This document shows positions 7,206 through 46,455 of a DNA stretch of 64,000 nt, piece after piece; position 1 is the stretch's first letter, and the number at the start of each line of letters is the position of its first letter. Made by a program: the position numbers and the translations under genes. Under the pieces are notes generated by a model. The model ran no database searches. It was not told where the DNA came from and saw nothing but the letters and a program-made list of their open reading frames with translations. Origin of the DNA: Thuidium tamariscinum (lineage: Eukaryota > Streptophyta > Bryopsida > Hypnales > Thuidiaceae); contig OX344752.2 of the NCBI GenBank assembly GCA_947034885.2, positions 22,777,386 to 22,841,385 on the forward strand, in the 5' to 3' direction.

Positions 7206-8937
7206 CTAAACATTTGGGTCTTCATGTGCATTGCTTGATTCACCACGCTCGTGGTTGGATGATTCTCCAACCACAAGTTTGCGCTTGGCGCGAGTGCGTG
7301 AAGCTGGTCCATTCGCATTTAGAATGGATTCTAAGACGTTGGAATCCTTCAAGGCTTGGAGGGTCCTCATGGTCTGTGGAAAGTGTTTCTCCAATAAATA
7401 GTCAACTGTTTGACTCGTGTAGTAGGGCCCATATGTAGAGTCCAACAATGCCATACTAGTAAGATCTTCTTCAGAGGCATTTGCAGTCTGGTCGCACACT
7501 CTTTTTCCTTCAAAATCCCAACGGTGACATTCCGGATGACGTCCCTACATGAAGCTTTGTGATTGTTTATCGAAAAATCCACCAAGGCATTGGAAAAAAA
7601 ATGCCCTCCGTCCCTCGTTCTGTGGACCGTTTCCCATGAGCTTGGATGCAACTTGCACGATCTCTTCTGGGTCAGTTTCCCAATTCAATTGAGAACTATC
7701 TGTGCCCTTTTCTTGATCATGTTGGCCTTGTCGCCAACTCCAAATCAAGTCTCGGCCCCATAATCTGGTCTCCGGAGTTGTATCACCTGTGTGTTCCCAA
7801 GAGGGCGGCATATATGTCATCAAATTGAACAAGGCGTATAAACGATCATGGAATGGGGCTGAACAAATAACACAACGTCTCCGTATGAGGCATTGTGTAA
7901 TTAGACATTGAGGATGGTATACGTGCACGCATGATCCAAGTGCCCATCCTCCTTCAGGGCCGAAGGATTCTTGACATATAGGACATTTTGTATGGTCCAA
8001 AACAAAAGTTGCTGGCTTTGGCCACAGAAGTTGTCGTTGTTTCTCATCTACATGGCACGACATCTGGTTTTTGTGGTCCCAACCAAGCTGTGTCTAATTG
8101 ATTCCTTCATTTCCAGGGGTGTTCAACATAGGCATATTCTCAGGAAACATGTCCTCCATAAATGCCCACGATGTGAGTCCATTCTCACGTTTAGGGGCAT
8201 TTGCGACGAAGTTCTTTGAAATTTTGTCCAACTCCTTCGCAACTTGCTGTGATCTGTCCACGAAGAGAATGCACGCAACCTTCTAGTGATAGTATGTTGC
8301 TGCCAACTCATTCAATTGTGCACGAAGCATCTTGTTTTCCTCTCGAAGGCCTAGTTTCTTCGGAGATGGTACCGGTACGGGGAGTGGAAGTGAAGGAAAT
8401 GAAAGTGAATCTTGAGTCTCGTGAACACCATCTGCCCCCACGATAGCATCTTCCGTGACGGTAGGGAAAATCGTAGATGGCAATACTGAAGAACGTTTGA
8501 CACGCTTGCCAGGAGAAGTATACTGAATGAGACCGCTAGTGAGGTCTTCCACAACCCTCTCCAAATGATGGGGATCATGTTCAATGAAACCTTCGTCCAT
8601 ATCTGACAAAGTAATCGTCTCATGTTGTTTTTGTCGAAGGCGTTGAAGTTCTTTGGCTTGTTTTGAGATGAGAGCATTCTTCTGATCCAAATTTGATTGC
8701 AATTTCTTCACATCAGATTGGAGTGAAGCAATTGTCGTGTCTTTGGTCTTCAAGAGGTCAAGAGCCTTATTGAGAGCCGTGGTTGAATCCCCTTGAGCTA
8801 AAAGAACAGGAACGCTCGCATCCACAGGCGTTTCATCATTCGGTTCGAAGTCGAAGACATCGGTCGCATTTTGCAGTGGTAATGATGGACTGCGAACTGT
8901 TGCTGAGGTCAATCCAAGTCCGATTTGATTCGGCGAG
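7206..8937 (-). pseudogene. Gene B, C-terminal part: coiled coil and RING-H2 finger
   Basis: This is the downstream part of a minus-strand transposon-type gene; its start is at 22832, beyond the gypsy insertion. Across the insertion, counting the 5-bp duplication once, the frame is continuous. From the insertion the frame gives an acidic linker, then a coiled coil (about 8800-8620 and near 8330-8290). A RING-H2 finger follows at 7985-7863 with spacing C-x2-C-x14-C-x-H-x2-H-x2-C-x10-C-x2-C, which fits the zinc ligands of RING-type ubiquitin ligases. The tail after it is charged. Internal in-frame stops are TAG 8285-8283, TAG 8096-8094 and TAG 7547-7545; sense-like protein continues after each, to the end at 7206. 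No frameshift was seen. If ever expressed intact it would be a RING-type E3-like protein fused to a transposon domain. The present copy is dead by insertion and stops. Confidence 0.6.
8933..8937. repeat. Left target-site duplication GCGAG
   Basis: GCGAG directly abuts the TGTGGC start of the 5' LTR and is repeated at 22085-22089 right after the 3' LTR end. A 5-bp duplication is standard for Ty3/gypsy integrases. Confidence 0.95.
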
Positions 8938-9257
8938 TGTGGCAAGACATATTTTTGATCTTTCCATTTAAAGTCAGTATGGAGCGGAAAGTGGAAAATT
9001 TAGCAACCGGATTTGTTCAGGGAATGGGTAAGATCCAGAAGTAGTACCAGATAATGTTGTAGAGACCGGGGGCAGAATAATTCCGGTTTATTACGACGGA
9101 ATACCGGAACGGAAAAATTCCGGACCCTACAGAACGGATTCTATCCGGATTAAGTCCCAGAACGGAACGGATGATTTCCGGACTTGGACCGATCGGATGA
9201 GAACGGGAACGGATGATCAGGAACGGAAGACCGGATCCATTTCTGGAAACTATATAA
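8938..9257 (+). promoter_or_regulatory. U3 promoter of 5' LTR with CGGA/TCCG motif cluster and TATA box
   Basis: The TATA box TATATAA is at 9251-9257, so transcription probably starts near 9280. The 250 bp before it are dense in AACGGA, CCGGA and TTCCGG boxes in both orientations. The LTR gene starts about 355 bp downstream. The 3' LTR carries the same box at 18775-18781. Confidence 0.7.
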
Positions 9258-9610
9258 GGCCTGACATTTTCAGTTGGCCCATTTGCTCTCAGGCGCTTCG
9301 TTGTGTGTTTTTCAACCCTCAGCGTTTTCCGCCTTTTCTGTGAGTTGGTTTTCCGCGCGTGTTTGGTGGCGCAATTTTCTGTGACGCGGCTGTCAGTGGT
9401 AGCGCCTGGTACTTGTCAGGGCGGGCGATTGTCAGTGTGCGCGGGTTTCAGACGGTGTGCCCAGGCGCTGGTGTGCGTGGGAAGACTGTGTGTGTGTTTT
9501 TGTGCAGGTGATTGTTACGGGCGGTTTAGTTTTGTCTGTCATTGTGAGTGTGTGTGAGGAACGGGACGTGCGGCTAGGAGAGAAGTGAGGTAGTTTTCCG
9601 GATAGTTGCC

Positions 9611-10561
9611 ATGCCGCAGCTACGCCGGAAGAGAACCGAGTCCACTACACCCCCACCCTCAGGGATAAAACTAAAGAAAGTAGTTCCGCTCATTCCTACT
9701 ACAGAGCCGGAGAAAGGCAACTTGATGGCGGACTTGACCACCATGGGGTGTCTAGGGTTAGCAGAGATATCCTGGGGTTTCAAGGAGGAGCGGATGGTGA
9801 AGGAGCTGAAGGGCAAGGTGTCGAATCAGTTCGACAACACGGCGCGGGGAATGCCGCACAAATGGACGGAGGCGCACTGGAGGGCCGTATACGGGTTCAA
9901 ACACCAGGGGCACGGACCGGCCGGGAGGAAGGTAGACTTCCTCCAAAACAAGTTCAGTGGCACCCCTCACCCGAAGGACGGATACCGGATCATGGACTGC
10001 AACGAAGACAGGCATAGGCGCCTGTTGAAGTTTCTGCTTCCGATCCTTCATCCGGAGAAACCAACCCGGATCACGATCGGCCTGGCCAACACCATTTTCG
10101 GTGCGCTGATCGGAGACCGGAAAGTGGACTGGGGCCGGATCATACAGGACCTGATCGCCCGGTTACTGAAGAACCTCGGAGGGAGTAGGGCAACTCCGAT
10201 CTCCCCATACCTCTTCCACCTCTACCACCATCTACAGCTCCTTTCGGATACGGAAGAGAAGACGTGGCACACCCAGAAGATAGTCTTGACGTACGGGGAG
10301 ACGTCAACGGATGATGAGGAGGGCTCCGAGTCCGAGACAGAGCGGGAGGACTCGGATAAGGAAGAGGAACCGGAAGTTCCGCTCGTGAAGCGGCAGAAGA
10401 CCACACCGCCGAACACGAGGGGATCTCCTCCGGTCCGACACAATCCGGGAACGGAAGGCAGAGCGGGACCATCCGAACCGGGTCAGGCCGAACCACCAAC
10501 AGAGGAAACGGATCCCAGTGATCCGTTCGTGCAACTGACGGAAATCCTGTGCAACATCTGA
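9611..10561 (+). CDS. LTR-encoded protein, N-terminal part (5' LTR copy)
   Basis: 316 codons starting at ATG 9611. The first half is a folded-looking region with LLKFLLPILHPEK, then GLANTIFGAL and DRKVDWGRII (about residues 140-185). The last motif and its spacing resemble KKKVDWSTLK in gene A and KKEVDWSTIK in gene B, so a distant common domain of the plant transposon-protein type is likely (inference). The second half is acidic, proline-rich and disordered. It ends at TGA 10559-10561, and the same frame stays open beyond the stop to 11293. It is in the same sense as gag-pol and is driven by the LTR's own promoter. Function is unknown; a regulatory or anti-silencing role is possible but unproven. 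Confidence 0.6.
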   Translation: MPQLRRKRTESTTPPPSGIKLKKVVPLIPTTEPEKGNLMADLTTMGCLGLAEISWGFKEERMVKELKGKVSNQFDNTARGMPHKWTEAHWRAVYGFKHQGHGPAGRKVDFLQNKFSGTPHPKDGYRIMDCNEDRHRRLLKFLLPILHPEKPTRITIGLANTIFGALIGDRKVDWGRIIQDLIARLLKNLGGSRATPISPYLFHLYHHLQLLSDTEEKTWHTQKIVLTYGETSTDDEEGSESETEREDSDKEEEPEVPLVKRQKTTPPNTRGSPPVRHNPGTEGRAGPSEPGQAEPPTEETDPSDPFVQLTEILCNI

Positions 10562-11293
10562 GCGGATTGGGAGGTCAAGCGGATCGTCCTGGAGAATATC
10601 GCGGAGATGGTCAATGGCAGACCGGATCATACTCTCCCGACCGTGGTAGGGAATTGCATCGCCTCGCCTACGGATCTCGCCAAGATGGAGGAGGAAAACC
10701 GGAAACTTCAGGAGGAAGTTGACGGTTTGAAGGCGGAGCTCCTTGTTCTCAGGGACAACGAGGCCGCTACCAAGGAGATGGCGGCGGAGACCGTCAAATT
10801 GGCGGAGCACGTGAAGGCAACATTCGGGGAACCCGGATCGGCTGTCATCCGGGCTCAACTGTTTGACGAAGAGGTGCACAAGGAGAAGAAACTATCCGGA
10901 AGCCGGATAGTCCGGATTCTGTCCGACTTCTCCGAAAAGGTGGAGACGACTTTGGTGAAGGTTCGGGAGGCGGCCGAACGGATGGAAGACTGTAGCCGGA
11001 GACTGACGGAAATTCCGGTCAGACTCTCCGATCTGTCTCTACCGGATATTTCCGAAGGGTTGCCTCAGAGACCAGGGAAGGACAGGACGCCGCAATCCAA
11101 GAAGTCAGGGCGAGCGTCAACGGGCAACCGGGAGGCGGCAATTCAGTTGTCGGAGTCTCCCGCGAGTCCGATTACTGGAGCTCCGGTTGCAACAGACGGA
11201 GAACGGAATCGGAACCTCACCGAGGTCTTCGAGCAGATCAGTAGGGCGGAAAGCCCGACTATAGGATCTAGGGTAGCGGAGCCGGATACGTAG
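10562..11293 (+). CDS. LTR-encoded protein, C-terminal coiled-coil part (5' LTR copy)
   Basis: This frame continues directly from the TGA at 10559-10561. The first ATG is 10607 (228 aa). It contains a long heptad-rich coiled coil (MEEENRKLQEEVDGLKAELL and following) and a second helical stretch (SDFSEKVETTLVKVREAAERM), then a serine/proline-rich tail ending at 11293. It is either a separate small protein or the C-terminal half of a longer product made by suppression of the TGA. The stop and both halves are kept in both LTRs. The LTRs arise from one template, so this shows only that the parent copy already had the stop. Confidence 0.5.
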   Translation, partial: ADWEVKRIVLENIAEMVNGRPDHTLPTVVGNCIASPTDLAKMEEENRKLQEEVDGLKAELLVLRDNEAATKEMAAETVKLAEHVKATFGEPGSAVIRAQLFDEEVHKEKKLSGSRIVRILSDFSEKVETTLVKVREAAERMEDCSRRLTEIPVRLSDLSLPDISEGLPQRPGKDRTPQSKKSGRASTGNREAAIQLSESPASPITGAPVATDGERNRNLTEVFEQISRAESPTIGSRVAEPDT

Positions 11294-12571
11294 GTATTAG
11301 GACTTTCCTGTTTTTGTAGTTTTTAACTTAGGAACGGATCAGGAGGAAATCCGGTCCGGTTTAGGAACTTGGAGCGGGTTGGAATCCGTTCTGGTTCAGA
11401 AGTAGGTAGGAACGGATCCGCCGAGCGTTAATCGCGGCGGACTTGTATGGCGCTTTTTGCTTTTTTGCCCATTATTTAAGTCAGTCCCCTCGCGGTGGAC
11501 TGGGAGTCTTTTCCTTTGCATTATCTTTGTGTATTTTATTCTCTCTTGCTTTGCGTGTGTATCTCCCGAGTTTGGCAGGGCGGCGCGACGCGGAGTTAGG
11601 AAGGCGCAAGTGGTTTTGCAGGCGACATTCTCCCTTTGGTGCTTATTTTCCGTGTCTGAGTATATGAGAACGGGTAGAGAAGAGTTGGGAGTGTAACTCT
11701 AGCGCCTCAGCGCTTCTAGGACTTAAGATTCCGGGTGAGAAAGCCGTTGTTAGGCTAGACGAGAGGGAAGGATTCCTTAATCGTGCTAGAGCTCCTGGGT
11801 GGGAAACCCAGTTGAGTGTCCGATCTCCTGTGAGGTCTCACCGTCTTTGTGGCAAACGGAAGAGTTCTGGTTGACGTTGGAATGGACGGATACACTTGTA
11901 GCCACCTGGCTCCCCAGGAACGGAAAGTCGCGTCAAAGTCGTTGTAGTATGAGAAGATCGTACGGGGGATCTCTGTGTGACCTACAGTCCGGATCTTTGT
12001 CTGGATTGTTGTGAGGGATCAAACCGGATCTGAAGTAATTTTAGAATTAACGGGTAGAAAGTGGGTCTTCAGCCACTATAAGTCACGGAAGGAGCGGTGG
12101 GCCTACCGCTCACAAAATCAAGCGGCGACCCCTCTGATGGTAAAACAGAGGCAAAACCAAACCGGATTGAGGAACGGGTGTGGACGGATCATCCGGAACG
12201 GATTGGTCCGAAGAGGAAACCAGGAGCGGAACTCGTTAGGGAGCGGATCCGTTGCAGTCTAACAGAACGGATAAAATCCGGGAAACCGGAAAAGTGAAGG
12301 AACGGATCCGTTCCGGACCAGATTGCGAGGATATCAGTTTTTGAACGGGATAACGGGTTATCGTCTCGGGTTAATTGTGTATTTCCGGTTCTAGATCTAG
12401 AACCGGATTATAGAGTTTTGGGAGTTGTCCTATCTTAATCGCTTAACTAAGCCAGATACTTCACAGAATCTCGCGGGTTCGATCTTTAGAGTCACTTAGT
12501 TATACTCTACAGTGATTTTTGTGAGTATAACAGGGAATTTACTTACCCTGTGTTGCGACATGGCAAAAATC

Positions 12572-12590
12572 TGGCGCCGCTGCCGGGGAT
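12572..12590 (+). other. Primer-binding site, tRNA-Asp type
   Basis: TGGCGCCGCTGCCGGGGAT begins 11 nt after the 5' LTR. It is complementary to the 3' end of plant tRNA-Asp including CCA, with one mismatch at the ninth base (comparison from memory of the tRNA). tRNA-Asp priming is common in plant Tat/Athila-type gypsy elements. Confidence 0.85.
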
Positions 12591-12704: not shown

Positions 12705-14312
12705 ATGAAAAAGGGGGCACGGAAAGTGAGGAGGTCTGAACGATTTGGTCCAAGCCAGCAGGCGGAAGGATCATCCGGACCTTATCTTAGCAATCCGGAG
12801 AGCTCCGATCCGGAAGATCATCCTGTTGTAGATCTAGGAACCGGATCCAGAGAGGAAGTAGATCCTAGAATTGTAGATTCGCCTCCATCTCCTGACCGGG
12901 AATTAGAGCAAGAGCGGGAAGATCCGATTCTAGAGAACGAAGACATCATGACCCGGTTAAGATACAAGCGTTTCAAGGGCGACGGAAGTCAAGATGCGGA
13001 TGACTGGCTCTGCGAGTTTGAATCAACGGCAATAGCCAATCAAGAGAATGAGGCGGCCCAGAGAAGGATCTTTCAAGGACTGTTAAAGGGAGAAGCTCTC
13101 AAATGGTACCAAGATATTACGGATCCGGTCCGAAATGATTGGAACCAATTGAGAACGGAATTCTTGCAGGCATTCCGTGAAGTGGGGGGAGAAGCCAGAG
13201 CCTTGGGACGGTTGAGTACTCTTACTATGAGGCCATCAGAATCCGTTCGTAAGTATGGACAAAGGGTTAAGGCACTCATTCAGAAACTGACTACTGAGAT
13301 TGCTCCCAGCTTGCAAGTGGAGTGGTACGTTGCCGGTTTACCAAAATCCATGGGATTTCTGATCCGTCAGACGCGACCGAGGACTTTGAGAGAGGCCATG
13401 GATGCTACTGCCAACTACGAAAATTCAGCTCAGTCATTAAGGGAGTCCCTTAGAAGTAATGAGAAGAAAGAGAAGGGCAAGCACAAGAAAAACCGGAAGA
13501 AGCACCACCGGAAGACTTCGGAGACGGAAAGTAGTTCCGACACTTCTGGAACGGAAGTTTCCGATCCAAGTTCATCAAGTTCGGATGAGGAGCGGAGCGA
13601 TTCACCTCCTCGACGTTCCTCGAAATCGAAGGGCCTTCGAGGGAAGACCATTGTGAAGGTAAAGACTGAAGATGCGGATTCGAAGAATATGATGAAGAGC
13701 ATTCAGCAATCTTTGGAGGCGATCAAGGTCAACCTTGCTGAGAACCGGAAGCCTAGGCGGATAATTCCGACCTCGCGCTCCAACGTTTGGTGTGGAAGAT
13801 GTGGAGAACCGGGTCACTACCCGAGCGAATGCCAGAGAATCGCCCAGAAACAAGTGCAGTATGTGTTTCCGGAAGAGGAGATCTACTACACCATGGCAGA
13901 AGAAGAGGAAGAAGAAGTGTACCAAGTTCAGCCAACGTACGGGCGAGGGAAGGGTATTGCAGTACCAATCCGGCCCAACATATTGAGCCGGAACTTCCTA
14001 CCAGGATCAAGTCAAGGAATGATGGTGCAGCAGCCGATCCGAACCTCTGGCTATCCGGATAGACAAGTGGTTATCTGTTACGGGTGTGGAGAGCCAGGAC
14101 ACTATGCCAACGCCTGTCCCAACAGAGGACTGGGGCAGGGTGCTCCGCGAACTCTTCCGTGCCAGAATTGCCAAGAATATGGACATCAGGAGGAGCAATG
14201 TCCCAAGCCGGTACAGCCAAGACCGGTGTACAAGAAGGTGCAAATTCTACCGAGGGAGCAAACCGCGCTCAATTACGGACACACTGCTGGGACGGAAAAT
14301 CCAGAGAAGTGA
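12705..14312 (+). CDS. gag: Gag polyprotein
   Basis: 535 codons from ATG 12705 to TGA 14310-14312. The central part (about residues 85-240) is a retrotransposon gag domain with DADDWLCEFE, FQGLLKGEALKWYQ and LGRLSTLTMRPSESVRKYGQRV. A basic and serine-rich linker follows. Three CCHC zinc knuckles (C-x2-C-x4-H-x4-C) are at about residues 364-377, 457-470 and 486-499. Gag forms the virus-like particle and the knuckles bind the element RNA. The presence of three knuckles is richer than the usual one or two. Pol follows in the same frame across the stop. Confidence 0.95.
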   Translation: MKKGARKVRRSERFGPSQQAEGSSGPYLSNPESSDPEDHPVVDLGTGSREEVDPRIVDSPPSPDRELEQEREDPILENEDIMTRLRYKRFKGDGSQDADDWLCEFESTAIANQENEAAQRRIFQGLLKGEALKWYQDITDPVRNDWNQLRTEFLQAFREVGGEARALGRLSTLTMRPSESVRKYGQRVKALIQKLTTEIAPSLQVEWYVAGLPKSMGFLIRQTRPRTLREAMDATANYENSAQSLRESLRSNEKKEKGKHKKNRKKHHRKTSETESSSDTSGTEVSDPSSSSSDEERSDSPPRRSSKSKGLRGKTIVKVKTEDADSKNMMKSIQQSLEAIKVNLAENRKPRRIIPTSRSNVWCGRCGEPGHYPSECQRIAQKQVQYVFPEEEIYYTMAEEEEEEVYQVQPTYGRGKGIAVPIRPNILSRNFLPGSSQGMMVQQPIRTSGYPDRQVVICYGCGEPGHYANACPNRGLGQGAPRTLPCQNCQEYGHQEEQCPKPVQPRPVYKKVQILPREQTALNYGHTAGTENPEK

Positions 14313-14381
14313 CGGTGCGAGGTGGAACTGCCAGGGGGGATGGAGAATTTGGTGCACCGGGTATCCACCCGCAGTTCCACC
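14310..14381 (+). promoter_or_regulatory. Candidate UGA-CGG stop-codon readthrough signal between gag and pol
   Basis: The gag stop is TGA (14310-14312) followed by CGG. After an 8-nt spacer (14313-14320), GGTGGAACTGC (14321-14331) pairs perfectly with GCAGTTCCACC (14371-14381). After a 2-nt bulge, GGGGGGAT (14334-14341) pairs with ATCCACCC (14363-14370) with one mismatch. The loop is 21 nt. UGA-CGG followed by a nearby 3' stem-loop is the known type II readthrough context of several plant RNA viruses. Gag and pol share one frame, so readthrough would make Gag-Pol without any shift. The function is inferred; sequence and pairing are seen directly. Confidence 0.75.
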
Positions 14382-17300
14382 CGGAATCAGCCGGAACGGT
14401 CTGTCAGGGGCAGGAAGAAAAAGCACAGAAGGAAGCCGGAATCGAGCAGTGAGTCTGATCCGCCCCCTTCCTTACGAGTTCCGGAACCAGAGAAAGACCA
14501 CTCGGAGGAAGGGATGGAGCGGAACCGGATTCCGATCGACATTAGTGCCGAAGTACGAGCGGATATCTCTGCAGAAAAAATAGTGCCAAAACGGAAGAAA
14601 GTTACTTTCGATGACACTCCAGTGATACTGAACCCGGACGTGAGGGCCCACGAGTATAACATCATCCAGGACATCAAGGACCAGAAGGCGAACGTGACGA
14701 TCGGACAGCTCATCCACGACAATGTGATGTACCAGAAGCTGATCCGGGATTCCTGGACACGGAAACGGAAGAAGAAGGTGAAACTTCCATCTGTCGCGGT
14801 GAACTACTCTAAACCGGAGGATGCCGGAGCACCAGAAGTCACTGTGGAAATAGAAGGGTGTTCTATTCCAAAGGTTCCTATCGATGGTGGATCAGGAGTG
14901 AACCTGATGTTGGAAGAAACAGCATTTGATCTGGGATTCACTACGTTTGAAGCCACGGATCAAGTTCTTCGTATGGCGGATCAATCGCGAGTGAATCCGG
15001 TTGGGAGATTGTCACAGGTCCCAACCCGGATCGGAGGAACGGATTACCTTCTGAACTTTGTCATCATCCGTGTTAACAAAGGGAGACCTTTTCCTATGCT
15101 GCTTGGGAGGCCATGGCTGTACTCTGCGCGAGTACTCGTGGATTGGGGAGCCAAGGAGCTGGTTGTGGGGAAACCTTCAATCCGGATACCCTGGGTCACC
15201 GAGCGTCACTTGGGGGAGACTAGCGACTCAGAAGGTTATACATCCGACTGGACGGATCCGGAAGATTCCGATCCATCCTATTATGTGGATTCATTTGGGC
15301 ACGAGTCGGAGTCAAACTTTGGATTCTCTAACGCTGTGTTAGAATACACTCCAAAGGAGGATCTTAACCCAGTTTCTGAGGATCGAAGTTTAGGGGAGTC
15401 CAGTGTTCCGCTCACGGCTGAGTGGATTGCCCTACAGATCAGGAACGGAAATCTTCCGGTCAGCAGCAGTACGTCAAATAAAGGAGAATGGGGACATCTG
15501 GTCCTCGATCCGGAAGAAGCACACACGGAGAAAATCAAGCCGGTTGTCGCATCCACGGATTATGAGAAGGAAGAGATCGGTCCCGGCAAGAGTTTCTATC
15601 TGAACAAATTTTTGCAGGATACGGAGAGGACCGGGTACACTCAACTGTTGAGGGAGTATCTGGATATTTTTGCCTGGAAGCCGACTGACTTGACAGGGAT
15701 TCCCCCGCATTTAGGAGAACACCACATTGACTTGACGGAAGAATCCATTCCGGTCCGTCAGCGACAGTACCGGCTCAACCCCAAGTACTCGTTGATGGTG
15801 AAGGAGGAGATCGATCGGTTACTGGAAGCCGGATTCATCTACCCAGTCAACAATTCCGAGTGGGTCTCTCCCATTGTGGTGGTTCCAAAGAAGGTAGGAA
15901 CGGATGGAAAGGTCAAGATCCGGGTATGCCAGGACTTCCGGAAGCTGAATGCAGCAACCCGAAAAGACTACTTTCCACTTCCGTTCACCGATATCATTTT
16001 GGATCATGTAGCTGGACACGAGTGTTACAGCTTCCTGGACGGATTTTCTGGATACAACCAAGTATTCATCCGATGGTGTGACCAGCTGAAAACCACATTT
16101 ACAACAGAATGGGGTACGTACGCTTTCACCAGGATGCCGTTTGGTTTGTGCAATGCACCCGGAACCTTTCAACGATTAATGATGGACATTTTCAAAGACT
16201 TTCTTCGACACTTCATCGAAATTTTTATAGACGACTTTGCGGTTTTTAGTGACCGGAAAAGTCATCTCGATTGTTTACGGAAAACTTTTGAAAGATGCCG
16301 GGAGACCAACTTGAAGTTGCATCCGGGTAAATGTTTTTTCGGGATGAATTTCGGAATCCTGCTTGGACATATGGTAAGCCAGAAGGGACTACAAGCAGAC
16401 CTGGAAAAGGTAAAGGTAATTCTATCTCTACTACCTCCCACGAGCGTAAGAGAGATTCGGGGTTTCCTTGGATGTGTAGGCTACTACCGCAGATTCATTG
16501 ACGGATACGCTAAGAGGGCTATACCTCTTACGGAACTTCTCAGGAAGGATGCGGAATTTGAGTGGACCGGAAAACGACAGCAAGCCTTTGAGGATCTCAA
16601 AACCCAGCTTGCTCGAGCTCCGATCCTCTGTGTTCCGGATTGGGCAAAGGAGTTCCACGTCACCATCGATGCATCCGGTTGGTGTCTGGGATCTATTCTG
16701 TGGCAGTTCGACCAAGAGAAGCGTGAGAATCCGATCTATTATGCAAGCAGACAGATGAGTTTGGCAGAACGGAATTACACGACCACAGAACGAGAGGCGC
16801 TAGCAGTGGTGTATTCCTGTAAGAAATTCCGACATTACCTATTGGGGTATAAGGTAATTTTTCACACGGACCATGACTCTTTGAAATATCTTGTAAATAA
16901 ACCGGATCTGTCAGGCCGGATTGCAAGATGGATTTTACTTTTACAAGAGTTTAACTATGAGGTTAGAGTTAAACCGGGAAAAGCAAATTCAAACGCGGAT
17001 TACCTCTCAAGGCAGAGAGGGAAGGAATCCGTAGCAGATATTTCTGCTGAGTTTCCGGATGAGTTTCCGGATTCTCTGAAGATTCCGGATGAAAAAGAGA
17101 ATCCGGATTCTTCTTTAGAAGTCTTTCACCTCAACAATGAGACTGTTTCAGAGTACCAAGACGTCATAGATTATTTCGTAGAGTCTAGATACCCTGAACA
17201 GATGGATCGGGAGGAGAAAGAGATCTTTCATAGAAAAGTGGCTCCTTACACTCTGATTAGGGGAGTCCTTTTCAAGTTAGGAGCGGACGACATTCTCCGA

Positions 17301-18425
17301 CGATGTCTGGAACCGGCGGAACAGAAGAAGGTAATACGTGCACTTCACGCTGGAAGCTCTGGAGGGCACTTCGCCTCCATGAGTACAGTTAACCGGATCC
17401 GGTCGGCCGGATACTGGTGGCCGTTCCTACACCGAGATGTGAAAAATTTTGTTCGAAGTTGCGATCAGTGTCAACGGACAGGAGCACCATCCTTCCGGAA
17501 CCACTGGCCGCTTACTCCTATCATTCCCCTAGCACCATTCGAAAAATGGGGCATAGACTTTATTGGACCCATTTTTCCGGTCAGTGCAAGGAGGAAGAGG
17601 TACATCATCCTGGCGACGGACTATGCAACGAAGTGGGTAGAAGCCAAGGCGACAAGGAAGAATGACGCTGAAACTTCCGCGAACTTTTTGTTTGAGGAGA
17701 TTCTCATGCGATTTGGACACCCATTGGAGCTGGTCAGTGACCGAGGGACGCATTTCCTCAACGATGTCATCATCGACATCACCAACAAATACCTTATTAA
17801 GCACCGGAAGACGACTCCCTATAATCCAAAAGCGAACGGATTGACGGAGCGTGCGAACGGAATCATTGGTAAGATTTTGAATAAGATGGTTTCCGCTCAC
17901 AAGACTGACTGGGATCGGAAACTACCTTCGGCAGTCCATGCGTACAATACAACAGAGAAGAATACAACCGGACAGACGCCGTACTTTTTGGTTTTTGGCC
18001 AAAATGCAATTCACGGAGTGGAGTTAGAGGTGGAAACATTCCAGGTAATGGCAGCCCGGAATGCTGAGCCAAGGGTGGATACACTTCCACGACTTCTTGC
18101 AATTGAAGAATTGGAGGAGATCCGGACTGCAGCCTTGGAAAGGACCATGAGCATCCAGTTCAAACGGAAGGAAGACTATGACCGGAAGATCCCGGCTGAC
18201 CACGGAATCCGAGAGAACGGACTTGTCCTTCTTTACGACAACCGACACAAGGATTTCCCGGGAAAGCTACATACACGATGGATGGGGCCTTTCCGAGTCA
18301 ACCAGGTATTCCAGAACGGATCCCTGCAACTTGAGAATCTGCAAGGACAGTGGCTGGATACTCGCGTGAACGGATCAAGGGTGAAGAAGTACCTAGAAGC
18401 TACTTCTTCAGATGAGGGGGGATGA
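14313..18425 (+). CDS. pol: Pol polyprotein: protease, reverse transcriptase, RNase H, integrase
   Basis: One open frame in phase with gag; the first possible non-AUG start is GTG 14322, but translation more likely comes by readthrough from gag. Numbering from 14322: aspartic protease with DGGSG at about residue 188; reverse transcriptase about 490-700 with VCQDFRKLN and the catalytic FIDDF near 635; RNase H with TIDAS near 780; integrase with an HHCC zinc finger (about 1009-1050, including CDQCQ) and the catalytic triad D near 1079, D near 1139 and E near 1175, the last pair 35 residues apart. The C-terminus has WMGPFRV and no chromodomain. All catalytic motifs are present and there is no stop, so the enzyme set looks intact. 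It ends at 18425, 36 bp before the 3' LTR. Confidence 0.95.
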   Translation, partial: RCEVELPGGMENLVHRVSTRSSTRNQPERSVRGRKKKHRRKPESSSESDPPPSLRVPEPEKDHSEEGMERNRIPIDISAEVRADISAEKIVPKRKKVTFDDTPVILNPDVRAHEYNIIQDIKDQKANVTIGQLIHDNVMYQKLIRDSWTRKRKKKVKLPSVAVNYSKPEDAGAPEVTVEIEGCSIPKVPIDGGSGVNLMLEETAFDLGFTTFEATDQVLRMADQSRVNPVGRLSQVPTRIGGTDYLLNFVIIRVNKGRPFPMLLGRPWLYSARVLVDWGAKELVVGKPSIRIPWVTERHLGETSDSEGYTSDWTDPEDSDPSYYVDSFGHESESNFGFSNAVLEYTPKEDLNPVSEDRSLGESSVPLTAEWIALQIRNGNLPVSSSTSNKGEWGHLVLDPEEAHTEKIKPVVASTDYEKEEIGPGKSFYLNKFLQDTERTGYTQLLREYLDIFAWKPTDLTGIPPHLGEHHIDLTEESIPVRQRQYRLNPKYSLMVKEEIDRLLEAGFIYPVNNSEWVSPIVVVPKKVGTDGKVKIRVCQDFRKLNAATRKDYFPLPFTDIILDHVAGHECYSFLDGFSGYNQVFIRWCDQLKTTFTTEWGTYAFTRMPFGLCNAPGTFQRLMMDIFKDFLRHFIEIFIDDFAVFSDRKSHLDCLRKTFERCRETNLKLHPGKCFFGMNFGILLGHMVSQKGLQADLEKVKVILSLLPPTSVREIRGFLGCVGYYRRFIDGYAKRAIPLTELLRKDAEFEWTGKRQQAFEDLKTQLARAPILCVPDWAKEFHVTIDASGWCLGSILWQFDQEKRENPIYYASRQMSLAERNYTTTEREALAVVYSCKKFRHYLLGYKVIFHTDHDSLKYLVNKPDLSGRIARWILLLQEFNYEVRVKPGKANSNADYLSRQRGKESVADISAEFPDEFPDSLKIPDEKENPDSSLEVFHLNNETVSEYQDVIDYFVESRYPEQMDREEKEIFHRKVAPYTLIRGVLFKLGADDILRRCLEPAEQKKVIRALHAGSSGGHFASMSTVNRIRSAGYWWPFLHRDVKNFVRSCDQCQRTGAPSFRNHWPLTPIIPLAPFEKWGIDFIGPIFPVSARRKRYIILATDYATKWVEAKATRKNDAETSANFLFEEILMRFGHPLELVSDRGTHFLNDVIIDITNKYLIKHRKTTPYNPKANGLTERANGIIGKILNKMVSAHKTDWDRKLPSAVHAYNTTEKNTTGQTPYFLVFGQNAIHGVELEVETFQVMAARNAEPRVDTLPRLLAIEELEEIRTAALERTMSIQFKRKEDYDRKIPADHGIRENGLVLLYDNRHKDFPGKLHTRWMGPFRVNQVFQNGSLQLENLQGQWLDTRVNGSRVKKYLEATSSDEGG

Positions 18426-18461: not shown

Positions 18462-19134
18462 TGTGGCAAGACATATTTTTGATCTTTCCATTTAAAGTCA
18501 GTATGGAGCGGAAAGTGGAAAATTTAGCAACCGGATTTGTTCAGGGAATGGGTAAGATCCAGAAGTAGTACCAGATAATGTTGTAGAGACCGGGGGCAGA
18601 ATAATTCCGGTTTATTACGACGGAATACCGGAACGGAAAAATTCCGGACCCTACAGAACGGATTCTATCCGGATTAAGTCCCAGAACGGAACGGATGATT
18701 TCCGGACTTGGACCGATCGGATGAGAACGGGAACGGATGATCAGGAACGGAAGACCGGATCCATTTCTGGAAACTATATAAGGCCTGACATTTTCAGTTG
18801 GCCCATTTGCTCTCAGGCGCTTCGTTGTGTGTTTTTCAACCCTCAGCGTTTTCCGCCTTTTCTGTGAGTTGGTTTTCCGCGCGTGTTTGGTGGCGCAATT
18901 TTCTGTGACGCGGCTGTCAGTGGTAGCGCCTGGTACTTGTCAGGGCGGGCGATTGTCAGTGTGCGCGGGTTTCAGACGGTGTGCCCAGGCGCTGGTGTGC
19001 GTGGGAAGACTGTGTGTGTGTTTTTGTGCAGGTGATTGTTACGGGCGGTTTAGTTTTGTCTGTCATTGTGAGTGTGTGTGAGGAACGGGACGTGCGGCTA
19101 GGAGAGAAGTGAGGTAGTTTTCCGGATAGTTGCC

Positions 19135-20085
19135 ATGCCGCAGCTACGCCGGAAGAGAACCGAGTCCACTACACCCCCACCCTCAGGGATAAAACTAAAG
19201 AAAGTAGTTCCGCTCATTCCTACTACAGAGCCGGAGAAAGGCAACTTGATGGCGGACTTGACCACCATGGGGTGTCTAGGGTTAGCAGAGATACCCTGGG
19301 GTTTCAAGGAGGAGCGGATGGTGAAGGAGCTGAAGGGCAAGGTGTCGAATCAGTTCGACAACACGGCGCGGGGAATGCCGCACAAATGGACGGAGGCGCA
19401 CTGGAGGGCCGTATACGGGTTCAAACACCAGGGGCACGGACCGGCCGGGAGGAAGGTAGACTTCCTCCAAAACAAGTTCAGTGGCACCCCTCACCCGAAG
19501 GACGGATACCGGATCATGGACTGCAACGAAGACAGGCATAGGCGCCTGTTGAAGTTTCTGCTTCCGATCCTTCATCCGGAGAAACCAACCCGGATCACGA
19601 TCGGCCTGGCCAACACCATTTTCGGTGCGCTGATCGGAGACCGGAAAGTGGACTGGGGCCGGATCATACAGGACCTGATCGCCCGGTTACTGAAGAACCT
19701 CGGAGGGAGTAGGGCAACTCCGATCTCCCCATACCTCTTCCACCTCTACCACCATCTACAGCTCCTTTCGGATACGGAAGAGAAGACGTGGCACACCCAG
19801 AAGATAGTCTTGACGTACGGGGAGACGTCAACGGATGATGAGGAGGGCTCCGAGTCCGAGACAGAGCGGGAGGACTCGGATAAGGAAGAGGAACCGGAAG
19901 TTCCGCTCGTGAAGCGGCAGAAGACCACACCGCCGAACACGAGGGGATCTCCTCCGGTCCGACACAATCCGGGAACGGAAGGCAGAGCGGGACCATCCGA
20001 ACCGGGTCAGGCCGAACCACCAACAGAGGAAACGGATCCCAGTGATCCGTTCGTGCAACTGACGGAAATCCTGTGCAACATCTGA
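19135..20085 (+). CDS. LTR-encoded protein, N-terminal part (3' LTR copy)
   Basis: Second copy of the frame at 9611-10561. It is identical in protein except one residue (Pro where the 5' copy has Ser, from the C/T difference at 19294). It ends at the same TGA (20083-20085). This copy is transcribed only if the 3' LTR promoter is active. Confidence 0.6.
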   Translation: MPQLRRKRTESTTPPPSGIKLKKVVPLIPTTEPEKGNLMADLTTMGCLGLAEIPWGFKEERMVKELKGKVSNQFDNTARGMPHKWTEAHWRAVYGFKHQGHGPAGRKVDFLQNKFSGTPHPKDGYRIMDCNEDRHRRLLKFLLPILHPEKPTRITIGLANTIFGALIGDRKVDWGRIIQDLIARLLKNLGGSRATPISPYLFHLYHHLQLLSDTEEKTWHTQKIVLTYGETSTDDEEGSESETEREDSDKEEEPEVPLVKRQKTTPPNTRGSPPVRHNPGTEGRAGPSEPGQAEPPTEETDPSDPFVQLTEILCNI

Positions 20086-20817
20086 GCGGATTGGGAGGTC
20101 AAGCGGATCGTCCTGGAGAATATCGCGGAGATGGTCAATGGCAGACCGGATCATACTCTCCCGACCGTGGTAGGGAATTGCATCGCCTCGCCTACGGATC
20201 TCGCCAAGATGGAGGAGGAAAACCGGAAACTTCAGGAGGAAGTTGACGGTTTGAAGGCGGAGCTCCTTGTTCTCAGGGACAACGAGGCCGCTACCAAGGA
20301 GATGGCGGCGGAGACCGTCAAATTGGCGGAGCACGTGAAGGCAACATTCGGGGAACCCGGATCGGCTGTCATCCGGGCTCAACTGTTTGACGAAGAGGTG
20401 CACAAGGAGAAGAAACTATCCGGAAGCCGGATAGTCCGGATTCTGTCCGACTTCTCCGAAAAGGTGGAGACGACTTTGGTGAAGGTTCGGGAGGCGGCCG
20501 AACGGATGGAAGACTGTAGCCGGAGACTGACGGAAATTCCGGTCAGACTCTCCGATCTGTCTCTACCGGATATTTCCGAAGGGTTGCCTCAGAGACCAGG
20601 GAAGGACAGGACGCCGCAATCCAAGAAGTCAGGGCGAGCGTCAACGGGCAACCGGGAGGCGGCAATTCAGTTGTCGGAGTCTCCCGCGAGTCCGATTACT
20701 GGAGCTCCGGTTGCAACAGACGGAGAACGGAATCGGAACCTCACCGAGGTCTTCGAGCAGATCAGTAGGGCGGAAAGCCCGACTATAGGATCTAGGGTAG
20801 CGGAGCCGGATACGTAG
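20086..20817 (+). CDS. LTR-encoded protein, C-terminal coiled-coil part (3' LTR copy)
   Basis: Copy of 10562-11293 with identical protein sequence; first ATG 20131. Same frame as the preceding part, separated by the TGA at 20083-20085. Confidence 0.5.
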   Translation, partial: ADWEVKRIVLENIAEMVNGRPDHTLPTVVGNCIASPTDLAKMEEENRKLQEEVDGLKAELLVLRDNEAATKEMAAETVKLAEHVKATFGEPGSAVIRAQLFDEEVHKEKKLSGSRIVRILSDFSEKVETTLVKVREAAERMEDCSRRLTEIPVRLSDLSLPDISEGLPQRPGKDRTPQSKKSGRASTGNREAAIQLSESPASPITGAPVATDGERNRNLTEVFEQISRAESPTIGSRVAEPDT

Positions 20818-22084
20818 GTATTAGGACTTTCCTGTTTTTGTAGTTTTTAACTTAGGAACGGATCAGGAGGAAATCCGGTCCGGTTTAGGAACTTGGAGCG
20901 GGTTGGAATCCGTTCTGGTTCAGAAGTAGGTAGGAACGGATCCGCCGAGCGTTAATCGCGGCGGACTTGTATGGCGCTTTTTGCTTTTTTGCCCATTATT
21001 TAAGTCAGTCCCCTCGCGGTGGACTGGGAGTCTTTTCCTTTGCATTATCTTTGTGTATTTTATTCTCTCTTGCTTTGCGTGTGTATCTCCCGAGTTTGGC
21101 AGGGCGGCGCGACGCGGAGTTAGGAAGGCGCAAGTGGTTTTGCAGGCGACATTCTCCCTTTGGTGCTTATTTTCCGTGTCTGAGTATATGAGAACGGGTA
21201 GAGAAGAGTTGGGAGTGTAACTCTAGCGCCTCAGCGCTTCTAGGACTTAAGATTCCGGGTGAGAAAGCCGTTGTTAGGCTAGACGAGAGGGAAGGATTCC
21301 TTAATCGTGCTAGAGCTCCTGGGTGGGAAACCCAGTTGAGTGTCCGATCTCCTGTGAGGTCTCACCGTCTTTGTGGCAAACGGAAGAGTTCTGGTTGACG
21401 TTGGAATGGACGGATACACTTGTAGCCACCTGGCTCCCCAGGAACGGAAAGTCGCGTCAAAGTCGTTGTAGTATGAGAAGATCGTACGGGGGATCTCTGT
21501 GTGACCTACAGTCCGGATCTTTGTCTGGATTGTTGTGAGGGATCAAACCGGATCTGAAGTAATTTTAGAATTAACGGGTAGAAAGTGGGTCTTCAGCCAC
21601 TATAAGTCACGGAAGGAGCGGTGGGCCTACCGCTCACAAAATCAAGCGGCGACCCCTCTGATGGTAAAACAGAGGCAAAACCAAACCGGATTGAGGAACG
21701 GGTGTGGACGGATCATCCGGAACGGATTGGTCCGAAGAGGAAACCAGGAGCGGAACTCGTTAGGGAGCGGATCCGTTGCAGTCTAACAGAACGGATAAAA
21801 TCCGGGAAACCGGAAAAGTGAAGGAACGGATCCGTTCCGGACCAGATTGCGAGGATATCAGTTTTTGAACGGGATAACGGGTTATCGTCTCGGGTTAATT
21901 GTGTATTTCCGGTTCTAGATCTAGAACCGGATTATAGAGTTTTAGGAGTTGTCCTATCTTAATCGCTTAACTAAGCCAGATACTTCACAGAATCTCGCGG
22001 GTTCGATCTTTAGAGTCACTTAGTTATACTCTACAGTGATTTTTGTGAGTATAACAGGGAATTTACTTACCCTGTGTTGCGACA

Positions 22085-22089
22085 GCGAG
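22085..22089. repeat. Right target-site duplication GCGAG
   Basis: Exact copy of 8933-8937, directly after the CA end of the 3' LTR. Confidence 0.95.
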
Positions 22090-26439: not shown

Positions 26440-28210
26440 CTTAAGGAATGACGTTGCCATTTGGATCCCCATTCATTTCAATATCACATCCTTTTTACCC
26501 TTTTTTCGTTAAATGAAGGTCCCATGGAGGACCTCATTTAAGAATCTATCACATTTCCCCCCTTTTTTTTTTCTTTTTTAAAGAAGGTCCCATGGAGGAC
26601 CTCATTTAAGAATCTATCACATTTCCCCCCTTTTTTTTTTCTTTTTTAAAGAAGGTCCCATGGGGGACCTCATTAAACCCTATATCACATTCCTTTTTTT
26701 TTATAAATTTTAATGAAGGTCCCATGGGGGACCTCGTTTAGTCCTCTATCACATTCCCTTTTTTTTTTAATTTTTTAATGAAGGTCCCATGGGGGACCTC
26801 ATTTAACTCAATATTGCATACCACATTTTTTTCAAATAGAGGTCCCATGGATACACCTACACATGCCTCACATGGTTTACAATCACATGATATTGAATAA
26901 ATGAGGTCTCCAATGCCACCTTCATTTAAGAAAAGAAAAGAGAAAAGGAATGTAATATTGGATTAAATGAGGTCCCCATGGGACCTTCATTTAAGAAGAA
27001 AAAAAAAGGGGGGAATGTGATATAGGATTAAATGAGGTCCCCCATGGGACCTCCATTAAAAAAGAAAAAAAAGGAAATGTGATATATTCTTAAATGAGGT
27101 GGTCCCCCATGGGACCTTCATTTAAGAAAAAAAAAAAGGGAATGTGATATAGGATTAAGTGAGGTCCCCATGAGACCTTCATTAAAATTTAAAAAAAAGA
27201 AGGGAATGTGATATATTCTTAAATGAGGTGGTCCCCCATGGGACCTTCATTTAAGAAGAAAAAAAAAGGGGGGAATGTGATATAGGATTAAATGAGGTCC
27301 CCCATGGGACCTCCATTAAAAAAGAAAAAAAAGGGAATGTGATATATTCTTAAATGAGGTGGTCCCCCATGGGACCTTCATTTAAGAAAAAAGAAAAAGG
27401 GAATGTGATATAGGATTAAGTGAGGTCCCCCATGGGACCTCCGTCAAAAACAAGAAAAAGGGAATGTGATATAGGATTAAGTGAGGTCCCCCATGGGACC
27501 TCCGTCAAAAGCAAGAAAAAGGGAATGTGATATATTCTTAAATGAGGTGGTCCCGCATGGGACCTTCATTTAAGAGGGAAAAAAAAAGGGAATGTAATAT
27601 TGGATTAAATGAGGTCCTCCGTGGGACCTTCATTTAAGAAGAAAAAAAAAGGGGGGGAATGTGATATTGGATTAAGTGAGGTCCCCCATGGGACCTTCAT
27701 TTAAAAAGAAATGTAATATTGAATTAAATGAGGTCCCCCACATATGGAACCTTTATTTAAAGAAAAAAAAGAAAGGGGAATGTGATATTGGATTAAATGA
27801 GGTCTTTAATTAGGCCGTCATTCAAGATAACAAAAATGTAATATTGACTTAAATGGGGTCCCCCATGGAACCCTCGTTTAAAGAAGAAAAAGAAAAGGAA
27901 AACAATATTGAGTTAAATGAGGTCTGTAATGGGAGCTTCATTTAAGAGAAAAAACAAAACGGGTGTGATTTTGCTTTAAGTGAGGTCCGTAGTAAGACCA
28001 TCATTTATTAAATGGGAAAAAACAAAGGGAATGTGATATAGGATTAAATGTAGTTTGCAATGGGACCTTCACTTAAGAAAGGGGGGGAGGAGGGTGGAAT
28101 ATTAGATTAAATGAGGTCTTGAATGGAACCTCATTTAAGAGAATTTAAAAAAAAAAGTCATATTGAATAGATTGAGGACCCCAATGGGAAATTCATTTTT
28201 AACAAAAAGA
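26440..28210. repeat. Fold-back element made of about 65-bp tandem units
   Basis: The left arm (about 26505-26850) holds about six units reading GAAGGTCCCATGGRGGACCTCATTT followed by a T-rich stretch. After a short centre (about 26860-26895) the orientation flips, and about 20 units reading AATGAGGTCCCCCATGGGACC, an A-rich stretch and GGGAATGTGATAT follow to about 28200. Each unit core is itself palindromic (GGTCCC-N-ATGGGACC). Unit variants alternate (TATAGGATT versus TATATTCTT; GAGGTCC versus GAGGTGGTCC), showing higher-order expansion. The outer units are the most decayed. No coding frame. Confidence 0.85.
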
Positions 28211-41324: not shown

Positions 41325-43014
41325 CAACCTTAAGTGTACGTTCGCACTTGCTATTAGTAAGAAATTTGGTGTTATTACTTTGCCTTCAATTGATTTTTTT
41401 TCCATCGTTGCACACCTTTTGCTGCAATGTTAGCCAACAAGAATTCCCCAAAACTTTGTCAATCCATACATCCAAGAAACAAAGTAGAATAGAATGCAAT
41501 TGAACACAAAATTTTCAATAAAAAAATTGAATCAATGATGTGGCTTTTGAGCCACAAATTTCATTTTTTGATCCACTTTTTCATTTGAGCCTCTTGGCCA
41601 ATCTTGTGTAGAATTTAGAGAGAAGAGAAGCTCTTTATACTAGTAGGATAGTGGTAGGCAAAACAAACCATGTGAGATATGTGAATTAGGACAAAAAAGA
41701 GCTCCACTACTCATAGTTAAGTGAAAACGTGGGAATTGTGATAGAAGTGAAATTTTAGACCTCATTTAGACATAGTAAAATATTTTTTCAAGAAACTTCA
41801 AGCCATGAGAAGTTTGTGAATCAAGTAAATTTTTATCTCCAAAAATTTGTTTGAGATTTCAATACTCCATCTAGAAATTATGGACAAATTTCAGAGAAGG
41901 TGTTTGAAAATGTCCCAAAAAAGTCCCTTGCACACACCCTCTAGAATTTTGTCCATAATTCTTACATGAGGCTCCAAAATTCCAAGTGGATTTTGAAAGA
42001 TAAAAATTAGCTCACTTTTCCAACTTCTTCTAGTTCAATTTTATTAAACAAATGGAAGCTTAAAGACAATTGATTGAAACATGGTATGGACAAGGAAGAC
42101 ACTTCATTTACTAGGGAAATCTTTGTCTTGCAAGTTATTTCTAAGCCATTGGAATACTTTAACAAGGTGCAGTCAATCAAGTCTCATGGTCACTTCCTAC
42201 TAATTTGACAATAGGACAAGTCATACAAATGAAAAGGCTTGAGTACATTGTTGTAAGTGTTGCAAAAATGTTATGTGCAATTCATGTAGTCCAACCTTTT
42301 GGCTATCCAAGCCCTTATTTTGTTAATAGATAGATTTTTTTAAAGGTTGTTTCAATATTGTATCAATCATAGTTATACAAATATATTTTTTAACAAATAC
42401 TGTTGTTTTAACAATGCCCAAATGTTGTTGTTTAAATTTTGTCTCATGCTTATTTCAATAATGGCTAAATGATGGCTAAATGGTGTACTAATATGGATTA
42501 ATTTCAAATTTAATGGTCTAACTATGAGATGTTGTTGAAACAATATATCTTTTTTAATATGTTCAACCATTAGATAAATATCCCAAAATATTCCATCACT
42601 GTTTCAAATAACAATTGACCAATTTTTAATCATTGGATGAAATTTGAGGCTTCTAGAGGGCAGTTTTGGATGTGTTCCCAAAACTCTTCTTGATACTATT
42701 GGTTGTTGTCAAGCTAGCATTTATCAAAAAGAAAAAAAATGAAATGAAATAAAATGAAATGAAATGAAATTTTGGTCTTGAAATGTGAAAGAAGTCTAAA
42801 TTTTGTTTTTTTCAAAAAACAACATTAATGATGTGGTGCTCTCTTGACCACGTCAGATTCTTGTATTTTTGTGTTTCCATGACAATGTGACGAAAAGTGG
42901 CTGTCACAGTTTTGTATTAATTTTCCTACCCCCTCCCTCATCAGAAAAATCAGCAACCAGTGGATTTGAATTTAAAAAAATCCCCCCCCCCTCCAAGAAA
43001 AATCAACAACCGTC

Positions 43015-44799: not shown

Positions 44800-46455
44800 A
44801 TCCTTTGAAATAATTTTTTTTTAAATTAAAAAAAATATGGATAATTTGAAGAGCAATGAAAATATTGTGTCTCTTGAAATTCAGACCTAAGAAAAACTTT
44901 CTCTAAATGTTATAGACAATGGAAAATACAATAAAAATAACTCTTTTTTCATTAATTTGGTAAAAATAGTAAAAAAATTCAAAAAACTAAAATGAAAACC
45001 CCATTTTTTCTCCAAGTAAAGGTCTTTTTTTCCAACAAATTTCATCTTTGAAAAAAATAAATTTTACTTCTCCACACTTGCGCAAAGTTAGCCACTTTGA
45101 CGACATGTGGAGGTTAAAGAGTATAGTATTTTCAAAAAATCTCTTTGTGGTCTTGTATAACTTCAGGTGAGGTCTTTGCATGCCAATTTTCAGCTCAAAA
45201 TTTGCATTTTTGGGTCAAAAATAGGACTAAAACCCCCCAAAATGGCCAAAGTAGACACCCAATCAGGGGCAATTTTAAAATAGTAAAATAATTTTGAAAA
45301 ATTGAAAAAAACTACACAAAATGTAAAACTTTTGTAGGCACCTTAGTTTCAAGTTTCAAGTCAAATGAACAAAAGATGAAAAAGTTATGAGCAAAAAACT
45401 ACCTCCTAAAGGTCAAGGGGACCAAAAAAAAGACAAGCGTTTCTTGCAATCACCCAATGACTATCAACTTAAGAAAAGGATCACAATTGGGTTAATTTAC
45501 TCAAATAGATAATCCTTCACTACTAAGATTGCACTATTTTAAACACTTTTCAATTTATTTCATAGAAACTACAGCTACTAATGGTTAAGTGCAAACGCAA
45601 GAATTATGCTCAAAATTGAATTTTAGACTTCATTTGGGCACAATGTAATAGTTCCATTTGTAAAAAATTTGAACTAGAAGAAGTTGGAAAAGCAAGCTAA
45701 TTTTTATCTTCCAAAATTCACTTAGAATTTTGGAGCCTCATGTAAGAATTATGGACAAAATTCTAGAGTGTGTGTGCAAGGGACATTTTTTGGGACATTT
45801 TCAAACACACTCTTTGACATTTGTTCATAACTTCTAGATGGAGTATTGAAATCTCAAAAAAAAATTTGGAGATAAAAGTTTACTTGATTCACCAACTTTT
45901 CTTAGTTTGAATTTTTTTGAAAAAAATATTTTACTATGTCTAAATGAGGTCTAAAATTTCACTTCTATTACAATTCCCGTGGTTTCACTTAACCATGAGT
46001 GGTGGAGTTCTTCTTTGTCCTAATTCACATATCCCACATGGTTTGTTTTGCCTACCACTACCCTACTAGTATAAAGAGTTTTTCTCCTCTCTAAGTTCTA
46101 CACAAGATAAGCCAAGAGGCTCAAATGAAAAAGTGGATCAAAAAATGAAATTTGTGGCTCACAAGCCACATCATTGATTCAATTTTTTTATTGAAAATTT
46201 TGTGTTCAATTGCATTCTATTTTACTTTGTTGCTTGGATGTATAGATTGACAACTTTTGGAAAATTCTTGTTGGCTAACATTGCAGCAAAGGGTGTACGA
46301 GAATGGGGAAAAAATCAATTGAAGGCAAAATAAAAACAATTTTTGCCCGTATCCTAATCCTGCCCTTGAAAAAAACTCATTGTGTGAAACCACACCCATG
46401 TAATAACACCAAATTTCTTACTAACAGCAGGTGCAAGGGTACCCTTAAGCCATTA

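Follow-up and report, generated by a model that had tools for sequence, protein, structure and literature searches.

A conserved stem-loop downstream of an in-frame UGA points to programmed readthrough at the gag-pol junction of a moss Ty3/gypsy retrotransposon

The gag and pol genes of a Ty3/gypsy retrotransposon of the moss Thuidium tamariscinum share one reading frame and are separated by a single TGA; this stop, the spacer that follows it and a paired helix beyond the spacer are conserved among genomic copies of the element, and pol is a frame under protein constraint, with no conserved AUG near the stop. As judged from the sequences, the junction signal is genuine and conserved and in all likelihood functional, and it is very probable that it directs programmed readthrough of UGA-C helped by the conserved stem-loop, in a manner close to that of the viral type II signals. 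Retroelements need much more Gag than Pol, in a proportion of about 20:1 (PMC2194720). The decisive evidence for the signal is the comparison of 50 genomic copies, and our confidence in readthrough is tempered by the stem mismatches found in 9 of these copies and by the use of proxy labels in the tree of relatives presented below.

The element was analysed within a stretch of 64,000 nucleotides (the window; GenBank assembly GCA_947034885.2, contig OX344752.2, positions 22,777,386 to 22,841,385 of the forward strand), to which all coordinates refer. Self-BLAST delimits a 5′ LTR of 3623 bp with TG...CA ends (8938..12560, + strand) and its partner, the 3′ LTR (18462..22084, +), flanked on the 5′ and 3′ sides by the target-site duplication GCGAG (8933-8937 and 22085-22089). 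Self-BLAST and alignment show the two LTRs to be 99.945% identical, with 2 differences in 3623 positions. The primer binding site read from the sequence (12572..12589, +) resembles the 3′ end of a plant tRNA which we take to be tRNA-Asp. The gag gene (12705..14309, +) encodes a Retrotrans_gag capsid domain identified by Pfam, CCHC zinc knuckles and, at the C-terminus of the translation, the motif NYGHTAGTENPEK, which is conserved among Gag homologues. The pol gene (14313..18425, +, with its stop at 18423-18425) is in the frame of gag, and its translation contains reverse transcriptase (RT), RNase H and integrase domains (Pfam) as well as a DGGS motif at residue 191 of the window copy, presumably the protease active site. 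Both frames are open (12705-14309 and 14313-18422), and the TGA between them (14310..14312, +) is the codon for which the comparison of copies leads us to propose readthrough. The LTRs, the target-site duplication, the primer binding site and the RT-RNase H-integrase order are those of Ty3/gypsy elements, and the LTR retrotransposon in the window looks complete and young. As to a possible place among the plant OTA superclade (Ogre/Tat/Athila), Phygy or Selgy, Pfam did not report the additional RNase H (aRH) that marks Tat elements, though it may not model this domain. Reassignment of UGA was also considered and rejected, as the junction UGA is the only in-frame one among the more than 1,900 codons of gag and pol.

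In the window copy the stop is followed by the 8-nt spacer CGGTGCGA (14313..14320, +), the 11-nt 5′ arm of the stem GGTGGAACTGC (14321..14331, +), a loop of 39 nt (14332..14370, +) and the 3′ arm GCAGTTCCACC (14371..14381, +), which is the exact reverse complement of GGTGGAACTGC and supplies codons for T-R-S-S-T. An initial annotation of this DNA had described a single in-frame TGA between gag and pol with CGG next to it, as well as a perfect 11-bp stem formed by 14321-14331 and 14371-14381, and both are borne out by the sequence, the arms being exactly complementary. It had also placed 8 nt between the CGG and the stem; the length of 8 nt is correct, but it is counted from the stop and includes the CGG (14313-14315). 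The second helix that it had proposed inside the stem is present within the loop in the predicted fold of the window copy, which belongs to the subfamily designated A below, but the predicted folds of the B, C, D and E representatives do not reproduce it in that form. The 91-nt junction RNA of the window copy has a predicted folding energy of −39.8 kcal/mol (z −2.31), which was equalled by 2 of 200 shuffled sequences, so that the shuffle test, taken alone, would be modest evidence of structure beyond chance. A search of positions 14200-14500 against Rfam returned mir-761 alone, with an E value of 0.24 and 18.6 bits against a cut-off of 82. The features of the type III signals of gammaretroviruses, namely UAG, a purine-rich spacer and a pseudoknot, are replaced at this junction by UGA-C and a predicted stem-loop.

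We have searched the host assembly (363,211,507 bases in 19 contigs) for further copies, which yielded 12 occurrences of an exact 23-base junction motif, 19 matches to a 281-base junction query and at least 139 matches to an RT query, ranging from 100% down to 37% identity. The 50 junctions compared comprise all 19 matches of the 281-base query, including the window copy, 11 of the 12 RT-query loci L046-L057 (L050 being without a junction), 10 of 32 fetched stretches, the remaining 22 of which were 8 stop-less loci and 14 without a recognisable junction, and all 10 of a further set of loci; L043, an RT match of 94%, was likewise without a junction. The division into subfamilies A to E is our own and fits L101, L107 and L109 poorly, and since many copies are closely related, the counts of copies given here are not counts of events. 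The stop is TGA in 46 of the 50 copies, as in type II signals, TAA in three (L021, L057 and L059) and a sense codon in one (L105), and the base that follows is C in 48. The triplet after the stop is considerably more variable, being CGG in 16 copies, CCC in 13, CAA in 7, CGC in 5 and CTC in 4, with CGA, CAG, TGC, CTT and AAC in one copy each. The spacer measures 8 nt in 49/50 copies and 7 nt in the other, and the loop 39 nt in 48 and 40 nt in two. In the type II layout a 3′ structure begins about 8 nt after the UGA (PMC3542737), and a distance from stop to structure of about 6-12 nt is given elsewhere (PMC11166343); the moss helix, in which at least 10 of 11 pairs form in 49/50 copies, lies 3′ of the stop within this range. 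A type II triplet, CGG or CUA, is present in the window copy and in 16 of the 50 overall, leaving 34 with other triplets, and CGG was found in 16 of the 18 copies of subfamily A and in no copy outside it. Thus the description of UGA-CGG as the type II hallmark of this junction holds for subfamily A only, the others carrying UGA-CCC, UGA-CAA, UGA-CUC or UGA-CGC, and the conserved core, as the aligned copies indicate, is UGA-C with the 8-nt spacer and the 11-bp helix, CGG being limited to subfamily A. The triplets CCC, CAA, CUC and CGC are not those of type II signals and, together with the sense codon of L105, they count against readthrough.

That the TGA should have arisen as a chance nonsense mutation of a defunct element, the stem being a coincidence, is vanishingly improbable in our judgement: even though many copies do contain other in-frame stops and the window element itself has a private in-frame TGA at 10559, the gag stop is common to 49/50 copies of several subfamilies, and 82 of the 83 listed Gag homologues with a visible end motif have the same end residue. 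The private TGA (10559-10561), which lies inside the LTR, provides a useful control, as it is a sense codon in all 9 other copies that could be aligned (10 were fetched, one being without a match), and by this comparison it has the behaviour of a true nonsense mutation private to this copy, unlike the gag stop. Furthermore, the near identity of the LTRs (2/3623 differences) indicates that the element moved recently with its gag stop already in place. The annotation had favoured programmed readthrough over random nonsense and had named a sense codon in most family members as an observation that would speak against it; the 50 copies support its preference, with a sense codon in just one. The LTR frame interrupted by the private TGA is long, extending from an ATG at 9611 to 11290 and open again after the stop at 10559; it is also present in the 3′ LTR, it has no clear Pfam family, and from a comparison of about 400 bases per copy the longer frame may be intact in other copies.

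The pairing of the stem is well maintained, 539 of 550 cells being paired across the 50 copies: all 11 pairs form in 41 copies, 10 in eight and 8 in the old copy L107, so that one or more mismatches occur in 9/50 copies, eight having one and L107 three. The representative arms are GGUGGAACUGC/GCAGUUCCACC for subfamily A, GGUGGGGUUGC/GUAGCUCCACC for B, GGUGGAACUUC/GAAGUUCCGCC for C, GAUGGAGCUAC/GUAGUUCCAUC for D and GGUGGAGCUAC/GUAGCUCCGCC for E. Scoring two-sided changes relative to the commonest pair at each position, pairing-preserving replacements are found at pair 2 in 4 copies (A-U), at pair 7 in 23 copies (G-C) and at pair 10 in 18 copies (A-U, U-A and U-G), as well as at pair 4 in one decayed copy. 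Uncompensated stem changes had been named in advance as evidence against the proposal; what the 50 copies show is compensation at pairs 2, 7 and 10. Pairs 7 and 10 link codon third positions of both arms, and the disallowed A-C combination is absent at pair 7 and occurs at pair 10 in only one of 23 distinct arm pairs (L025). With the same 23 arm pairs, the native register pairs 242 of 253 cells, and displacing the 3′ arm by 1-4 positions leaves between 48 and 112 of them paired. However, when arms are swapped among 8 representatives 9 to 11 pairs still form, and with wobble excluded the representatives average 9.9 pairs with their own arms and 8.8 with swapped ones; the arms are thus alike between subfamilies, which limits the evidence from covariation. 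Randomisation of synonymous codons (200,000 draws for each sequence), scored on the observed in-register pairing of 11/11, or of 10 in one representative, yielded p values between 0.005 and 0.016 for every one of the 6 subfamily representatives tested; as these are related, the values are not independent. Between the pol genes of A and B 496 of 748 residues agree, and at fourfold third positions 48 of 150 do (0.32, against 0.25 expected from composition); these sites being near saturation, the pairing of the stem is not kept by inertia of silent sites. The 11 pairs have mean pairing probabilities of 0.91 to 0.998 in the predicted folds of 6/6 representatives. In L054, of subfamily C, the 11-nt sequence of the 3′ arm, GAAGTTCCGCC, recurs in the tail of gag, upstream of the stop, and might there compete for pairing with the 5′ arm.

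The 3′ arm encodes TRSS, and families of the same genome that lack the stop (RT 56-70% identical) are informative in this respect. Eight of ten fetched loci from these families are open from the zinc knuckles onward, over 751 bases, the other two being interrupted or off target, and all eight (about four families) retain a TR motif at the position of the 3′ arm. As these stop-less relatives keep a similar motif, the 3′ arm is probably under protein constraint too, which counts against the readthrough interpretation, and the TRSS/TR protein motif may be older than the helix. A search for a 5′-arm partner within 120 nt upstream found at most 8/11 pairs in 8/8 of these loci. This bears on an unlikely alternative, in which the helix would serve packaging, dimerisation or RNA stability and the stop would be bypassed through its sequence context alone: the helix does sit within the genomic RNA and UGA-C by itself is leaky at a low level (PMC3542737), but such a role would account neither for the 8-nt distance from the stop in 49/50 copies nor for the poor pairing in stop-less relatives that have the TR motif.

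The position of potential start codons was likewise considered, since Pol might be made by termination followed by reinitiation, or by internal entry past the stop, aided by the helix. The window copy has an in-frame AUG 27 nt past the stop; this AUG is, however, not conserved, and in the representatives of B and C the first one lies 639 nt and 606 nt past the stop, respectively. The corresponding methionines, residues 214 and 203, come just after the DGGS motifs at residues 206 and 195, so that a Pol started at AUG in B or C would be without the putative protease active site. Initiation at a non-AUG codon near the stem may still be envisaged. Reinitiation requires neither an in-frame junction nor a constant 8-nt spacing, and we find this route quite unlikely. 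Removal of the stop by splicing in a subset of transcripts has a precedent in the Ogre elements of pea and Medicago, in which an intron between two ORFs is spliced in part of the transcripts (PMC6317226), and we consider it highly unlikely here: a scan of five subfamily representatives from −90 to +140, using ungapped positions and canonical sites, identified a shared GT at −72 and shared AGs at +63 and +120, with no combination that keeps the frame, and a splicing model would leave the helix and its spacing unaccounted for.

Relatives of the element beyond this genome were studied at the level of protein sequences. A search with Gag scored 7,995 candidates and found 155 relatives, the best 120 of which were examined; a terminal NY motif is present within the last 40 residues in 83 of these and absent from that region in 37. 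Of those with the motif, 82/83 end exactly 13 residues from the N, down to 42% identity, the remaining one (P0023) ending at 22 residues, and no protein among the 120 matched the pattern of a Gag that reads on past the end motif. Since the length limits of this search would hide fused proteins, pol was searched as well, which gave 4,092 relatives, the best 120 being examined. An RT tree was built from 58 rows chosen from the listed pol relatives plus the window copy, 57 of which had a sufficiently long RT match and were used. Rows were labelled as stop when the protein starts within 45 residues of a TRSS-like motif, taken as a proxy for a stop upstream of this motif, and as fused when the gag domain is in the same protein, resulting in 18 stop rows (including the window copy), 25 fused and 14 unknown. 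All 18 stop rows and 9 unknown ones constitute a clade of 27 rows (support 100/99) without any fused row; its sister group consists of three fused proteins, and the rows outside are mostly fused. The simplest reading of this tree, which contains flagged long branches, would be a single gain of the gag stop without observed loss. For the junction DNA of the relatives, two scans of viral contigs, using alignments of gag and of pol, brought up no relatives. Among the listed matches, the nearest named relatives are from Marchantia polymorpha for Gag (55% identity) and from Riccia sorocarpa for pol (66% over 34% of the query), and proteins of the flowering plants Tanacetum and Coffea also match pol. 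For an unrelated ORF of the window the nearest named relative is Klebsormidium nitens.

Comparison with known systems, as far as these are described in the excerpts available of the sources cited, places the moss signal closest to type II. Type II viruses tabulated in PMC3542737 include alphaviruses, tobraviruses, pecluviruses, furoviruses and a coltivirus (VP9′), and their signals, which often serve replicase expression, have in common with the moss element UGA-C (CGG in subfamily A) and a stem-loop about 8 nt 3′ of it; for UGA-CGG of Tobacco rattle virus a readthrough of 9% is given with a leaf reporter (PMC2754532). Unlike these, the moss signal is found at a retrotransposon gag-pol junction, its loop is nearly constant at 39 nt, and its triplet drifts (CGG, CCC, CAA, CUC, CGC) while the helix persists. 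Gammaretroviruses (MuLV, type III) share the in-frame gag and pol, the stop, the 8-nt spacer and a 3′ structure, but with UAG-G and a compact pseudoknot in place of UGA-C and a stem-loop (PMC3542737). Among retrotransposons, the fission yeast elements Tj1, Tosmo1-3 and Tcry1 have a conserved in-frame TGA between Gag and Pol with its context, described as UGA readthrough (PMC10085805); there the conserved context spans 8 bp with TGA-CT, the text available making no mention of a stem, whereas the moss junction has a covarying stem and a variable triplet. Tca2 of Candida albicans resembles the moss element in its gag-UGA-pol arrangement in one frame, its 8-nt spacer and a 3′ RNA structure, and differs in that the structure is a pseudoknot candidate and the spacer purine-rich; in S. 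cerevisiae its UGA and the surrounding sequence did not suffice for readthrough, which counts against a readthrough interpretation (PMC2194720). In the plant sireviruses an 11-bp stem that covaries is likewise located close to the gag terminus, but with a 4-nt loop and a different frame relation (PMC5009743), the moss stem lying 3′ of the stop, with both genes in the same frame and a 39-nt loop. RIRE2 of rice is a plant gypsy element cited as a readthrough candidate, with no signal or structure described in the available part of that source (PMC2754532), and plant LTR element groups mostly have one gag-pol ORF and some two, Bianca and Ogre having separated ORFs (PMC6317226). Our search of the open-access literature found no description of a type II-like, covarying stem-loop at the gag-pol UGA of an LTR retrotransposon, and it appears that UGA readthrough at gag-pol is already known in kind and that the covarying-stem variant is new.

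By analogy with viral type II signals, on which we base the occurrence and rate of readthrough as well as the mechanical role of the helix, most ribosomes would terminate at the UGA, releasing Gag. The leaky UGA-C, together with the 11-bp helix 8 nt downstream, would lead a minority of them to accept a near-cognate tRNA, and at this distance the helix should sit close to the mRNA entry when the UGA occupies the ribosomal A site. Such ribosomes would go on to translate protease, reverse transcriptase, RNase H and integrase in the same frame, so that Gag-Pol would be made at a minority level and the helix would raise readthrough of the UGA. As to the origin of the signal, we lean slightly towards a scenario in which the gag stop was gained once in one streptophyte Ty3/gypsy clade and kept together with a stem-loop stimulator convergent with that of plant RNA viruses, a new 5′ arm having evolved against an older TRSS-coding stretch under protein constraint, with the helix and the 8-nt spacing constant and the triplet drifting. 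If true, this would be a natural experiment in which structure is able to replace the CGG/CUA context, and the dozens of natural variants of one signal with differing triplets make the contributions of codon context and RNA structure directly testable.

Several minor observations were made in the course of this analysis. On G000:C2 two junctions of the same orientation, near 8.446 and 8.456 Mb, are separated by 9,522 bp, close to the 9,524 bp between the LTRs of the element, and the pair is probably a tandem array with a common middle LTR. On G000:C6 four RT matches at 24.97, 25.19, 25.42 and 25.61 Mb, with the same query start (41-281) and one TGA each, lie about 190 to 230 kb apart and look like a large repeated block. 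G000:C11 (17.5 Mb) is home to many interrupted copies and is perhaps a sex chromosome or a heterochromatic one. Within the window, positions 26481-28143 contain a dense array of diverged direct and inverted repeats, and an inverted repeat pair of about 690 bp with 91% identity (41370-42057 and 45652-46338) is possibly another mobile element.
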